DNA of 64,000 nucleotides from Pontibacter diazotrophicus (GTDB lineage: Bacteria; Bacteroidota; Bacteroidia; Cytophagales; Hymenobacteraceae): the NCBI RefSeq assembly GCF_003367245.1, contig NZ_QRGR01000004.1:248001-312000 (forward strand). Direction: 5' to 3'. Shown here one piece after another: positions 3,003-7,965 of this stretch. Both the position numbers and the translations under genes were made by a program. Under the pieces are notes generated by a model. It was not told the DNA's origin, ran no database searches, and saw only the letters and a program-made list of their open reading frames with translations. Every line of letters begins with the position of its first letter. Within the stretch, counting starts at the first letter, position 1.

Positions 3003-4280
3003 ATGAAACAGTGGTACGCCCTCTATAGCAATATCCTGTACATGCATTTTTCCGAAGGTTTCTACAACCTACCGGAAAGCGCCAAAAATGCGGCTTCCCC
3101 GCAAAGCCACCTAAAGCGCCTGCTACGCATAGCAGGATATACCTTTCTGCGTTTATTCGGCAATCTTTTTCAGTCAGTTGAAAAGCCTGAGAAACTACGG
3201 GGGAAGGTCTGGCTCTATGTCGTGAGTCAGAATAATTACGACAGCCTGCAGTTTGTGCACCAGGGAATGCCAAGGGCTGTTTTTGTAGCGGGCCAGAGCA
3301 AGGACATTGGCAAGTATAAAAATGCAGTCGAAAGGCTTTCGCTACGCCGCAAGCTATTTTACTACTATAAGTTTCCCATCCTGTTGCTGCAGTTCCTGAA
3401 ACACAAAAAGAAGAGCACCCTCCGCTTCTATGATTTACTCTATGACGCCATCGGGTTTTATGAAATCTACTATCAGAAGCTTCAAAAATACTCCCCTGCT
3501 GCTGTTGTTTTTGCCAATGACCACAATGCCGACGCCCGCGCGATGCTTTTAGCGGCAAAAGCATTAAGCATCAAAACTATATACATACAACATTCAAGTG
3601 TAAGCCCCATATTCCCGCCACTTAGTTTTGACCTTAATCTTTTGGAGGGACAGGACTCTTTAGACAAGTACAGACAGTGTGGTCCGGTACAGGGGAAGGC
3701 AGAGCTGATAGGAATGCCTAAAGCAGATGCTTTTGTAACCATGCGAAATTTCAGCCATACTATACATACCGTCGGCATCGGGTGTAATCTGCTTGATGAC
3801 CTGAAGGAGGTAGATATTCTACTGCGCAGGCTAACTGTTGCATTTCCAGATATTACATTCATACTTCGCCCCCACCCCCGCGACACCAGAAACTTAGCCA
3901 GTCTTCTCAACATAGCAAACAATGTTCAACTTTCAGACAGCCGAACGGAGCCTGTTTTCAACTACCTGCAGCAGTTGGATGTACAAGTAAGCAGCAACTC
4001 TGGCATTCACCTGGAAGCAGTGCTGCTGAATGTGTGGAGCCTCTTCTATGATTTTAACCCGAAAGAGCAGTTACATGATTACTACGGTTTTATCAATCAT
4101 GGCTTAGTGGATGTAATAGAATCACCTGAACATATGATTCAGGCCTTATCCTCCCATCTAAAAAATAAGCCACAGGTGTTTGAAAGAGCACAGTATTATA
4201 ATGCAACTGTTGCAACAGAGTATGATGGTAAAAGCTCAGAAATTGCAACGCATTCAATCAGAAGATTTATTGAATGTTGA
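3003..4280 (+). CDS. Probable GT-B-type glycosyltransferase, candidate pseudaminic acid transferase
   Basis: 425 residues, no signal peptide. I do not recognise a named family. Seen: a basic N-terminal half, YIQHSS at ~194-199, and in the C-terminal half RPHPRD at ~289-294 followed by SSNSGIHLEA at ~330-339. The His/Arg-Pro-His-Pro plus Ser-rich pair is the pattern seen in the second Rossmann lobe of CDP-glycerol glycerophosphotransferases, polysialyltransferase-like and Kdo-type GT-B enzymes, where it contacts the CMP/CDP donor. The start lies 3 bases after pseI, so it is cotranscribed with synthesis of a CMP-activated sugar. Inference: it transfers that sugar to a glycan or protein. Confidence is good for a transferase fold, low for the substrate. 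Confidence 0.5.
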   Translation: MKQWYALYSNILYMHFSEGFYNLPESAKNAASPQSHLKRLLRIAGYTFLRLFGNLFQSVEKPEKLRGKVWLYVVSQNNYDSLQFVHQGMPRAVFVAGQSKDIGKYKNAVERLSLRRKLFYYYKFPILLLQFLKHKKKSTLRFYDLLYDAIGFYEIYYQKLQKYSPAAVVFANDHNADARAMLLAAKALSIKTIYIQHSSVSPIFPPLSFDLNLLEGQDSLDKYRQCGPVQGKAELIGMPKADAFVTMRNFSHTIHTVGIGCNLLDDLKEVDILLRRLTVAFPDITFILRPHPRDTRNLASLLNIANNVQLSDSRTEPVFNYLQQLDVQVSSNSGIHLEAVLLNVWSLFYDFNPKEQLHDYYGFINHGLVDVIESPEHMIQALSSHLKNKPQVFERAQYYNATVATEYDGKSSEIATHSIRRFIEC

Positions 4281-4346: not shown

Positions 4347-6359
4347 ATGTGCAAAACTTATAAGCCTCTCTATCGCTTTATCATTTTTTTACTTTCTTGT
4401 CTAATCCTAATTCCCACATTAGTCTCGGCTCAGGGTGCTAAAGGTGCTATACAGCTGGATGGGTATAATGATTACGCTGAATTTAGCAATGACAACAGAG
4501 GTATAACAAATCAGGTTACTGTAGAAGCCTGGATCAAAACAAATTCTATGGGACATCATCATATTATGAGTAAATATGATCGTGACTCAGAAAACGGTTT
4601 CCAGTTGCTCATCCAGAATGGCAAAGCCTGTGTAGCAGGCAGAGATGGTTCTGGCAACTACAGGCTTTCAGGATATTCTACCTCCATAGTAGCCGACAAT
4701 AAGTGGCACCACATAGCGGGAGTAGTACACGATGGAATCTGGAAGATATATGTTGATGGCGTACTGCAAAACCAACTCGATACAGGATATAGAAACCCTG
4801 TGTTAAATAGTAGAGAAAAACTTCTACTAGGAAATTTTTACTATGTACACCTTGGGAATCACTTTTACGCTGGAGCAGTAGACGAAGTAAGACTTTGGAA
4901 AAGAGCGCTTACGGAAGAGGAAATAAGGCAAAATATGTGCAGATCACTTCCAGCTAATTCTCCAGACTTAGTTGCTTATTTAAAGTTGGATAATATAGCC
5001 GGGGGAGTAATTATTGACAGTAGCCCTTTAAGAATGAATGGCAGGTTAACAAATACTACTCCAGCACTTGCTGCCATTACCTCCGGGGCTCCAATTGGGG
5101 ACAGAAGCGTTTACAGGTATACAAACAACTGGAATTCCTCTCTTGAAATGCTCACTGATATAGCCAATTTTTCTGTTATCAAGGTAGATCCTGCTATTCA
5201 GGGCTTCCATTTATATTCTATTCAATCACCCCCTTCTTCTACAAATGGTATAACCTCACCGCAGGAGGTCGAAGAATACTATGGCTTATTTAAAGTTGGC
5301 GACGCCAGTAAAAAATACAAGGTTTATTTCAAACAATACGGGATGAACTGTGGAGGCAATCTATACCGCAGACCCGATAATACAGTAGCAAACTGGAATC
5401 AGGTGGCAGATACAACTGCATCACCAATTATGTTATACAACACTACGGCAAATTATGGAGAATTTGCCGCTACAAGTAAAGCTGCTCCCACAGTAACAAT
5501 CAGTGGGCCCACTAGTGTATGTGCTGGCTCTCCTGTAACGCTTAGTGTATCATATGCGGGCGACGGACAGATTCAGTGGAATACCGGAGAAACGACCAGA
5601 GACATACAAATAACACAGGGAGGCAGGTATGAAGTGGATATAAAAGAAGGTAGCTGTGAATTATCAGCTTTTATAAATGTTCAAAGCACTTCACCAGTAA
5701 GCTTTAGCCTGGGCAAAGATATATCGCTGTGCCCCGGTGAGTCGCAGGTGCTATCAGCTCCAGGTGGAATGGACGCATATACCTGGAATACAGGAGAAAC
5801 AACTCAAAACATCAATGTAACAACTGGTGGTACGTATTGGGTGGAGGTAATAACACCAACAGGTTGTACCTCGAGAGATGAAATTGTTGTTTCGGGCGCC
5901 AATGAACCTGAATTCAATTTTCCGACAGAAGTGTTCGCTTGTTATGGTGAATCTGTCACCCTTGATGCAACCACAGCAGGAGCCTCTTATCTTTGGAGCA
6001 ATGGCAGGATAACTCCAAACATCGAGGCAGGCGCCTCGGCTGATTACAGCGTAGCAATAACGGTAGATGGTTGCACTTACTTACATCAGTTTACAATCAA
6101 ACGCGACGAATGCCCGATCATTCCAAACGTAGTAACACCCAATGGCGATGGGAAAAATGATGCCTTTGTGGTGCAGGGAATGGAGGAAAACTCGCTGGAA
6201 CTGCAAGTGTTTAACCGCTGGGGGAAACCTGTCTATCAAAACAACCGGTACGATAACAGCTGGTCTGCAACAGCTATGCCAGCTGGGATATATTATTATC
6301 ATCTAACCAGCAGTCGCACGCAAAAAGTATTCAAAGGTTGGGTAGAGGTTATAAGGTAA
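4347..6359 (+). CDS. Secreted LamG-domain protein with type-B T9SS C-terminal domain
   Basis: 670 residues. An N-terminal signal peptide ends near ...LVSAQG (~residue 28). Residues ~35-190 form a LamG/concanavalin-like domain (AIQLDGYNDYAEF start, DEVRLWKRALTEEEIRQN end). About 385-590 hold three Ig/PKD-like repeats, each with a Cys, a Pro/Gly-Glu turn and a WNTGETT or WSNGRIT strand. Residues ~589-670 are the gliding-motility-associated (type B) sorting domain, with VVTPNGDGKNDAF, FNRWGKPVY and PAGIYYY. Such domains direct export through the type IX secretion system to the cell surface. It sits between the glycan operon and a flippase gene, so it could be a glycosylated surface protein (inference). 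The start at 4347 was chosen for the signal peptide; the other ATG at 4180 belongs to another frame. Confidence 0.85.
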   Translation: MCKTYKPLYRFIIFLLSCLILIPTLVSAQGAKGAIQLDGYNDYAEFSNDNRGITNQVTVEAWIKTNSMGHHHIMSKYDRDSENGFQLLIQNGKACVAGRDGSGNYRLSGYSTSIVADNKWHHIAGVVHDGIWKIYVDGVLQNQLDTGYRNPVLNSREKLLLGNFYYVHLGNHFYAGAVDEVRLWKRALTEEEIRQNMCRSLPANSPDLVAYLKLDNIAGGVIIDSSPLRMNGRLTNTTPALAAITSGAPIGDRSVYRYTNNWNSSLEMLTDIANFSVIKVDPAIQGFHLYSIQSPPSSTNGITSPQEVEEYYGLFKVGDASKKYKVYFKQYGMNCGGNLYRRPDNTVANWNQVADTTASPIMLYNTTANYGEFAATSKAAPTVTISGPTSVCAGSPVTLSVSYAGDGQIQWNTGETTRDIQITQGGRYEVDIKEGSCELSAFINVQSTSPVSFSLGKDISLCPGESQVLSAPGGMDAYTWNTGETTQNINVTTGGTYWVEVITPTGCTSRDEIVVSGANEPEFNFPTEVFACYGESVTLDATTAGASYLWSNGRITPNIEAGASADYSVAITVDGCTYLHQFTIKRDECPIIPNVVTPNGDGKNDAFVVQGMEENSLELQVFNRWGKPVYQNNRYDNSWSATAMPAGIYYYHLTSSRTQKVFKGWVEVIR

Positions 6360-6480: not shown

Positions 6481-7965
6481 ATGAGGAAATTACAGCGCGA
6501 AGGTATCTGGAACACCACCATCTCGTATGCCGGCATCGTTATCGGCTACGTGAACACCATCCTGCTTTTCCCCAACTTCTTGGATGAAGCGGAGGTGGGG
6601 CTCACGCGCCTCCTGCTCACAATATCGGTTATGTTCGCGCAATTCTCGGCGCTTGGGTTCGTGAACATGAGCACCCGCTATTTCCCCTACTTTAGGGATA
6701 AAGCGCAGCAGCACAATGGTTTCCTATTCCTGCTGTTGGCTGTTCCAATATTGGGATTTGCCATAGCAACAGGCCTGTACCTGCTGCTGAAGCCTGCCGT
6801 GATAGATTATTACGAAGAGAAGTCACCGCTAATCCTCGATTATTATTACTATATCATTCCGCTGGCACTTTTTACGCTGCTGTACAACATGTTCACAGCC
6901 TACCTGCGGTCATTATATAAAACCATTGTTTCCTCCTTTGTGCAGGACTTCCTGCTTCGTATTCTCACCACGCTGTTGATAGCTATTTACGCATTGGGCG
7001 TGATAGATTTCCGGCAGTTCGTGCTGCTTTACATTATCATCAACTCGGCAGGCGCATTGGTACTGGTGGCGTATACCATCTGGCTTAAACAGCTTTACCT
7101 GCGCCCCTCATGGGCAGGTCTGCGTATCATCCCGTTGCGGGAGATGCTGTACTATGGTTTCTTCACATTTCTGGGAAATCTTTCTACCACCATCATCACC
7201 ACAGTTGACCAGGTCATGATCAGTGCCTATAGCCTGAGTGCCAATGGCATCTACACCACTGCTTTTTTCATGACGAGCGCCATTATGGTGCCAGCAAGGT
7301 CTATTCTTAAAATTGCCTCTCCTCAGGTAGCCGACTTCTGGAAGGATAAAAACATGGAGGGAATGGAGAAGCTGTACAGGCACGTGACGATGGTGAACCT
7401 GATTGTGGGGCTGCTGCTCTTCATTGGCATCTGGGCAAACATTGATAACCTCTTTTCTTTTATGCCGGAGACATACCGTGCAGGAAAGTATGTGGTTCTT
7501 TTTCTCTCCTTCGCCCGTATTGTGGATTTGGCGACAAGCCTAAACGGAGTCATTTTAGCGACCTCTGATAAATTTCGATGGGACCTTGTCTTCAACATTG
7601 CGCTGGCCATACTCACTGTCGGGACGAACTGGTACTTTATTCCGCGCTACGGCATCAACGGAGCAGCGCTGGCCTCCATGCTGTCCTATGTATTCATGAA
7701 TCTCACCCGCCTATTCTTTGTACAGTTCGTTTATAAAATTCAGCCTTTTACGTGGAGCTCAGCTCAAATTGTAGTCATAGCAGCCGTTGCATTGGGCGTT
7801 TCTTACCTGGTGCCTTATCTACAGAATGTGTTTGTTGACATGCTGGTGCGCTCCCTCCTGATAACAGCTGTATATGGCAGCCTGAGCATCGGCTTGAACA
7901 TATACCCGGAGATGAATGCATGGCTGAAGAAGGTGGTGTTTGGCTTTACTGGCTGGAGGTTTTAA
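6481..7965 (+). CDS. Wzx-like polysaccharide flippase (MOP superfamily)
   Basis: 494 residues with about twelve to fourteen hydrophobic helices spread over the whole length and no signal peptide. The start region GIWNTTISYAGIVIGYVNTILLFPNFL is typical of oligosaccharide flippases, which move lipid-linked sugar repeat units across the inner membrane. A conserved-looking loop lies around IPRYGINGAALASMLSYV in the last third. It has its own promoter 18 bases upstream and lies between the pseudaminic-acid genes and, convergently, a sugar aminotransferase; a role in exporting that glycan is inferred from position only. Confidence 0.8.
   Translation: MRKLQREGIWNTTISYAGIVIGYVNTILLFPNFLDEAEVGLTRLLLTISVMFAQFSALGFVNMSTRYFPYFRDKAQQHNGFLFLLLAVPILGFAIATGLYLLLKPAVIDYYEEKSPLILDYYYYIIPLALFTLLYNMFTAYLRSLYKTIVSSFVQDFLLRILTTLLIAIYALGVIDFRQFVLLYIIINSAGALVLVAYTIWLKQLYLRPSWAGLRIIPLREMLYYGFFTFLGNLSTTIITTVDQVMISAYSLSANGIYTTAFFMTSAIMVPARSILKIASPQVADFWKDKNMEGMEKLYRHVTMVNLIVGLLLFIGIWANIDNLFSFMPETYRAGKYVVLFLSFARIVDLATSLNGVILATSDKFRWDLVFNIALAILTVGTNWYFIPRYGINGAALASMLSYVFMNLTRLFFVQFVYKIQPFTWSSAQIVVIAAVALGVSYLVPYLQNVFVDMLVRSLLITAVYGSLSIGLNIYPEMNAWLKKVVFGFTGWRF

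Follow-up and report, generated by a model that had tools for sequence, protein, structure and literature searches.

To our knowledge, few transferases have been described for pseudaminic and legionaminic acid, and this scarcity blocks both the reading and the building of glycans that carry these sugars. In Tannerella forsythia, according to the accessible portions of two papers, gtfS (Tanf_01245), judged by locus tags, is the gene after pseI (Tanf_01240), and a knock-out mutant no longer has the terminal pseudaminic acid derivative; knock-out of the legionaminic-acid-type counterpart, TFUB4_00887, likewise loses the nonulosonic acid, and cross-complementation failed (PMC6120980, PMC6388019). 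In Acinetobacter baumannii, KpsS1 is a retaining Pse5Ac7Ac transferase that founded family GT118. The same source states that cytidine is bound by a (K/R)xHP motif in both sialyltransferases and retaining Kdo transferases, that a YE pair is found in KpsS1 and KrkA, and how QxxxD, the motif of the nucleophile in the retaining group (GT99, GT107, GT118, GT140), is defined (PMC12887879). SpsB of Bacillus subtilis is encoded beside genes for CMP-legionaminic acid and carries HP and DEG motifs, yet in the part of the report at hand it is unneeded for legionaminic acid transfer (PMC7439481), a warning for neighbour-based inference of the kind used here.

The protein considered here, P0001, is encoded by a 425-aa reading frame with an ATG start at positions 3003-4280 (forward strand) of the 64,000-nucleotide stretch of Pontibacter diazotrophicus DNA that was analysed (the window). 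Judged from sequence and gene context, P0001 is probably a GT-B glycosyltransferase with a CMP-nonulosonic acid donor, here CMP-pseudaminic acid. It would most likely attach this sialic-acid-like sugar to a surface glycan, and its family is a defined candidate for a pseudaminic- or legionaminic-acid-type transferase in environmental bacteria. P0001 resembles GtfS and TFUB4_00887, which the accessible text describes as about 445 aa long, of GT-B type, placed after pseI by locus tag and provided with an HP motif; GtfS, compared by description only, differs in its DXD and D/E-D/E-G motifs and its stringent donor choice (PMC6120980, PMC6388019). The D/E-D/E-G sialyltransferase catalytic motif is absent from P0001, and triplets of this type occur in 4/14 rows of the family alignment (A3), at residues 399-443 near the C-terminus. 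KpsS1, itself a pseudaminic acid transferase, shares the YE pair with P0001 but is described, in the excerpts available, as related to WbbB, KpsC and KpsS (PMC12887879), whereas P0001 has neither a PF05159 match nor QxxxD. The Maf flagellin transferases (MptE-like, PF01973), proposed in the source text at hand as nonulosonic acid transferases of flagellin systems, differ from P0001, which has no PF01973 match at E ≤ 1. The bacterial polysialyltransferase 5wc6, which we take to belong to family GT38, is GT-B like the P0001 model (Z 16.5, rmsd 3.9, 274 aligned) but shares only 8% identity with P0001, which has no D/E-D/E-G motif.

The pse run and its last gene

The P0001 gene is the last of a same-strand run, pseB-pseC-pseF-pseGH-pseI-GT (locus L139). 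In the window, on the forward strand, the run comprises pseF, the CMP-pseudaminic acid synthetase (3-461; TIGR03584, 305.8 bits for the whole gene, cut-off 205.7), a pseG-pseH fusion (454-1929; TIGR03590, 182.6 bits, cut-off 153.55) and pseI, the pseudaminic acid synthase (1956-2999; TIGR03586, 502.7 bits, cut-off 340.25). The 5' part of pseF lies before the start of the window, and pseB and pseC are further upstream. PseB (533.7 bits) and PseC (474.8 bits), like PseF, PseG and PseI, pass their curated equivalog cut-offs; the PseH half of the fusion is under its own (44 versus 93.1 bits). Because complete CMP-pseudaminic acid pathway genes precede P0001, with only the PseH half scoring below cut-off, no biosynthetic step remains for it. 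The preliminary description had placed the gene 3 bases after pseI, and this position is exact: the pseI stop codon TAG occupies 2997-2999 and is followed by TAC and then by the ATG of P0001. From this spacing, the gene is presumably cotranscribed with the pse genes. The P. diazotrophicus genome contains one match to P0001 at E ≤ 1. The reading frame is not a chance one, since it is conserved in 77/390 genomes of the window's order (E ≤ 1e-5) and has invariant residues.

Downstream on the same strand are a LamG-domain protein with a T9SS type B sorting domain (4347-6359) and a Wzx-like flippase (6481-7965; PF01943, 37.5 bits, cut-off 28.2). The LamG protein, possibly a cargo that bears or binds glycan, also lies between transferase and flippase in several other Pontibacter loci. 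A GT4 gene whose product has a YYWPP motif lies upstream of pseB (L139:7091-8413). Such a gene is present in 6/13 Pontibacter loci, and in an unrelated genome one adjoins a transferase of BFO_1060 type (L140:9280-10581). Another contig of P. diazotrophicus carries a second NeuB-family synthase (G000 C47:69207-69929), and the organism may therefore make a second nonulosonic acid.

Co-occurrence and neighbourhood across genomes

In the window's family, the P0001 gene is found in 72 genomes and is missing from 7, all of one genus. PseI is matched (E ≤ 4.7e-134) in 72/72 genomes with the gene. Of the seven without it, only G228 exceeds the PseI cut-off; the match in G291 is weaker (6.9e-68), and the other five show nothing at 1e-60. 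The association has a Fisher p of 2.5e-8 with genomes counted as independent, a table that shared ancestry inflates. G228 carries a pse cluster without the P0001 gene (L109). In the order sample, PseI is over its cut-off in 148/390 genomes and the P0001 gene is present in 74 of these 148; thus, the family is not the order's general pseudaminic acid transferase. In the phylum sample a P0001 match at E ≤ 1e-8 occurs in 11/395 genomes, four of them within the window's family. Of 20 stretches taken downstream of PseI elsewhere in the order (L157 itself is without PseI), four (L152, L160, L169, L170) contain a weak MptE-like gene, picked by eye, that starts ≤2.4 kb after PseI and scores 24.5-27.7 bits against a cut-off of 34.6. 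These Maf-type genes are a possible alternative transferase.

The neighbourhood was counted in 66 loci from named genomes. The preliminary description had named pse genes beside homologues as a check, and PseI lies upstream of the transferase on the same strand in 64/66 loci, with a gap of 5-2015 bases between match segments (≤500 in 54 loci); a flippase relative is present in 65/66. One of the two loci without an upstream PseI, L072, starts at base 3 of its contig and so cannot show the gene. In the other, L039 from Pontibacter ummariensis, the transferase is open over its full length and still has beside it the flippase and a PseB relative that is 85% identical. No pseC to pseI genes were found between the PseB relative and this transferase, and a search of the genome gave no PseI over the cut-off; we propose that this transferase is an orphan or uses another donor. 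In the Hymenobacter translucens locus (L044), 0/7 neighbouring ORFs scanned match another GT family. Four GT4/GT2 probes gave no match in the 53 non-Pontibacter loci, a weak test.

Ten marker proteins were used to examine all 12 matches outside the window's family (order and phylum samples). In 7/12, the fetched stretch includes a PseI- or NeuB-type synthase. When the relatives are split, a division made after the matches had been seen, the synthase is found in 7/8 of those matching into the N-domain (L098-L104), and 0/4 of those matching only from about residue 266 (L105-L108) have any nonulosonic acid marker. L101 has PseB, C, F, GH and I with the transferase directly after PseI, L098 has PseI and PseGH, and L104 has PseI (492.9 bits) and a PseGH-like match. 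L100 combines PseB, PseC and PseF with a NeuB-type synthase, and L099 has NeuB (494.4 bits) with NeuC and NeuA relatives. L102 and L103 contain NeuB-, NeuA- and aminotransferase-type genes, which suggests legionaminic acid or a related sugar. At L097 none of the ten markers was found beside the transferase. As a control, at least 7/204 PF00534 (GT4) glycosyltransferase genes in nine genomes lie ≤10 kb from a NeuB-family gene, a lower bound counted by eye on NeuB contigs among the matches listed, versus 8/9 for the P0001 family. Pseudaminic acid, the donor originally proposed, keeps its place as one of several: the family accompanies several nonulosonic acid pathways, with both PseI- and NeuB-type synthases.

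Family, motifs and predicted fold

P0001 passes none of the curated models scanned, and the original label 'unassigned' holds in this sense. It scores 39.3 bits against BFO_1060_trans (NF046086; cut-off 200, residues 267-423 only), 26.9 bits against surf_polysacc (TIGR04396; cut-off 125) and 12.8 bits against Glyphos_transf (PF04464, CDP-glycerol transferases; E 0.059, gathering score 22.1). It has no match at E ≤ 1 to PF05159 (Capsule_synth) or PF02350 (Epimerase_2). Of 14 family members scanned, 9 have weak similarity to BFO_1060 and 10 to surf_polysacc (E ≤ 0.01). Based on hhalign profile comparison, with the alignment of 14 family members (A3) as the profile, the BFO_1060 set scores 97.9% (E 5.2e-13), aligned from residue 162 to the C-terminus with the first 161 residues of P0001 unaligned; the BFO_1060 model had picked out the 11 sequences of this set, and 8 score above its cut-off. 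Three epimerase-type sequences score 95.4% (E 1.9e-8), three CDP-glycerol transferases 84.6% (E 6.9e-6, 86 columns, C-domain only) and GT4 18.3%. The comparison sets are small and of unequal size and depth, so this ranking is a guide only; the searches for them, among 41 genomes, found PF05159 members in 2 and PF04464 members in 3. By profile, then, the nearest relatives of P0001 are the BFO_1060/TIGR04396 families, a distant relationship that refines the earlier reading, and P0001 credibly belongs to a new, unnamed family of a known enzyme kind, distant from both.

Like P0001, the BFO_1060/TIGR04396 proteins have (K/R)xHP (11/11 rows of A4), but most BFO_1060-type rows, judged by eye, are without the NDH motif of P0001. 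The BFO_1060 model has matches in 28 genomes, and seven loci were inspected (L140-L146). PseI-, NeuB- or other pse-type genes are nearby in L140, L142 and L143, which are over the model's cut-off, and in L144 and L145, which are under it (L145 is over the TIGR04396 cut-off). L146, also under the cut-off, has a NeuA-like gene only, and L141, over the cut-off, has no nonulosonic-acid-type gene at the locus. These families are thus also often found in nonulosonic acid clusters. In a literature search with subscription journals mostly outside its coverage, no paper was found joining 'Hymenobacter' and 'pseudaminic acid', and none returned mentions 'BFO_1060'.

The two motifs of the preliminary description are located at residues 289-294 and 330-339. 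RPHPRD (3867-3884, forward strand as for all four motifs) contains the nucleotide-binding (K/R)xHP, which is found in 14/14 rows of A3 and 37/37 rows of A1. SSNSGIHLEA (3990-4019) combines a Ser/Thr with EA where helix 335-341 begins, with S/T333, E338 and A339 kept in 14/14 rows, and is a likely phosphate contact. R289, H291, P292, E338 and A339 are invariant in the alignment of 37 sequences. An N262-x-x-D265 motif (3786-3797; N262 in 14/14 and D265 in 12/14 rows) occupies the loop after the first C-domain strand. NDH (residues 172-174, 3516-3524; 13/14 rows) ends an N-domain strand (167-171 in the model), and its D173 could serve as the catalytic base. Each of NDH, N262, HP and S333 directly follows a strand in the model. 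A YE pair at residues 153-154 is found in 8/14 rows.

From these features we propose the following course of reaction. The donor would be CMP-pseudaminic acid, supplied by the PseB, C, F, GH and I enzymes encoded in the same run, and RxHP and the Ser/Thr...EA loop would hold its CMP in the C-terminal domain. Transfer would be aided by acids that are conserved and appear to face the cleft: D173 of NDH, D265 of NxxD and possibly E154 of the YE pair. The enzyme would be cytoplasmic and may tolerate more than one nonulosonic acid; the acceptor is probably lipid-linked and would be flipped by the nearby Wzx.

The AlphaFold2 model of P0001 (from 37 sequences; mean pLDDT 89.2, pTM 0.86) has a GT-B fold, in agreement with the GT-B-like character first ascribed to the protein. 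The best fold matches, also in the Foldseek search, are UDP-GlcNAc 2-epimerases (Z 22.1, rmsd 3.9, 311 aligned), followed by MurG (Z 18.0, rmsd 4.8, 305 aligned), WaaA (Z 17.6, rmsd 5.4, 305 aligned) and TarL (Z 16.8, rmsd 4.6, 304 aligned). When the C-domain is modelled alone (pLDDT 95.1), an epimerase (Z 14.1) and TagF (13.5) are effectively tied, and epimerases, TagF/TarL (Z 12.9-13.5), a capsule multienzyme and WaaA fall within about 2 Z units, leaving the candidate families unseparated. The fold thus supports GT-B, but by itself it does not name the reaction. GT52/GT80 sialyltransferases were unrecognised among the fold matches listed, which carries no weight against them. Searches of solved structures gave no usable match with the P0001 sequence (E 0.5 and 0.79) and, with A3, a sole PDB profile match (C-domain, E 0.43) to 8csd, an 'N-acetyl glucosaminyl transferase' that we take to be a WbbB entry.

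Module exchange and competing readings

Three types of sugar-making module precede the transferase. Type 1, with PseGH, is found in 47/66 loci and is a loose class, taking in any PseGH match without type-2 or type-3 genes (in L085 this match is only 26%). Type 2 (10/66 loci) has PseGH, a divergent PseI, a hexapeptide acyltransferase and a PIG-L deacetylase, the last two being present in all 10 type-2 loci and 0/56 others. Type 3 (6/66 loci) has an ATP-grasp/GNAT protein and a HAD phosphatase without PseGH. L039, L054 and the cut locus L072 fit no type. In the type-2 loci (L045, L052, L056, L063, L076, L077, L079, L081, L091, L095) the hexapeptide and PIG-L genes lie between PseI and the transferase, and the gene content suggests an N-deacetylated, re-acylated nonulosonic acid.

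We had expected the pairwise distances of transferase and synthase to be coupled. No such coupling was found (r 0.34 for transferase and PseI, r 0.93 for transferase and flippase), and this led to a new result: the transferase tree calls for at least six switches of the sugar-making module in Hymenobacter, through which the transferase keeps its flippase. Based on trees of a quick kind (63 loci), the type-2 label changes at least 6 times along the transferase phylogeny and 8 times along that of the flippase; on the PseI tree it changes once, because the label was first set by PseI divergence. Shuffled labels gave 9.5 changes on average (7-10). The observed 6 is therefore fewer than random, as expected with occasional exchange. 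A test of whether all type-2 transferases form a single clade rejects that grouping (p-AU 0.0002, for a group named before the tree was made). L076 (type 2) and L085 (type 1) share 91% of the transferase and 96% of the flippase but 59% of PseI. The change may have run in either direction, and either part may have moved. The exchange suggests that the enzyme either tolerates different donors or adds a neighbouring sugar that stays constant.

The first of these, a new class of donor-tolerant CMP-nonulosonic acid transferase that is fixed with the flippase while sugar modules of at least three types are exchanged like cartridges, is a possibility that we hold tentatively. The main rival to P0001 as a CMP-nonulosonic acid transferase is that it adds a constant sugar of another kind, with a different enzyme adding the exchangeable nonulosonic acid and the flippase, not the pse genes, as its functional partner. 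This reading accords with transferase distances that follow the flippase and not the synthase, with donor modules that change around the transferase, and with a P. ummariensis locus that retains transferase and flippase without PseI. We nevertheless consider it unlikely and prefer donor tolerance, because the seven ORFs scanned in the H. translucens locus include no other candidate for the nonulosonic acid step, distant relatives adjoin PseI- and NeuB-type synthases in other families, and (K/R)xHP points to a cytidine donor. Against a CMP-nonulosonic acid transferase stand, besides the distance correlations, the SpsB precedent in the accessible part of its report (PMC7439481), the P. ummariensis genome without PseI over the cut-off, L097 without an adjoining marker, the epimerases at the top of the fold matches, the missing D/E-D/E-G and the half of the order's PseI carriers that are without the gene. 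If donor tolerance is true, such an enzyme contrasts with the stringent Tannerella enzymes and would be useful for glycan building, and Hymenobacter species would change the charged tip of a surface glycan but retain the enzyme responsible for attaching that tip. Natural pairs with about 90% of the transferase shared and different donor modules would permit a direct test of donor choice.

The remaining readings concern the reaction itself. A retaining mechanism with a covalent Asp-sugar adduct, as in GT99, GT107, GT118 and GT140, would leave the donor unchanged and is a variant of the preferred reading. The 8csd match, a Foldseek match of the C-domain to KpsC (6mgb, E 6.8e-5) and the YE pair, as reported for KpsS1 and KrkA in the excerpts of PMC12887879, speak for it, but QxxxD is found in 0/14 rows of A3 around residues 245-280, neither YE nor FE occupies the 153-154 site in L099, L100, L101 and L103, and there is no match at E ≤ 1 to PF05159. 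We regard membership of that retaining group as improbable; the mechanism may be inverting or retaining. KpsC and KpsS are presumably members of PF05159. That P0001 is an epimerase or hydrolase of GT-B fold, acting on a nucleotide sugar of the nonulosonic acid pathway, seems very unlikely to us despite the leading fold matches and the profile score of the epimerase-type set. The pathway is complete without P0001, the BFO_1060 set is closer by profile, and the GT-B fold is common to UDP-GlcNAc 2-epimerases and many transferases. The comparison with non-transferases that had been suggested is thus ambiguous: epimerases lead by fold, yet P0001 has no Epimerase_2 match at E ≤ 1, and its relatives L103 and L104 reach 17.6 and 23.4 bits, under the gathering score of 30.6. 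It is just as hard to see P0001 as a TagF/TarL-like polyol-phosphate transferase using a CDP-alcohol. The Glyphos_transf match and the TagF/TarL fold matches would fit such an enzyme, but the former is under the Pfam cut-off, the profile similarity is confined to the C-domain, and teichoic-acid (TarF/TarL) models match better to the two C-terminal-only relatives scanned (L105 and L107), which lie outside nonulosonic acid clusters. The candidacy of P0001 for CMP-pseudaminic acid transfer, as put forward in the preliminary description, is thus supported by pse linkage, by co-occurrence with PseI in all family genomes that carry the gene, by the predicted GT-B fold and by (K/R)xHP.

Relatives of a DUF7033 protein (about 460-490 aa) occur in 60/66 loci. 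Its gene lies between transferase and flippase in L044 (9239-10720) and L045 (9279-10667) and in similar places elsewhere.
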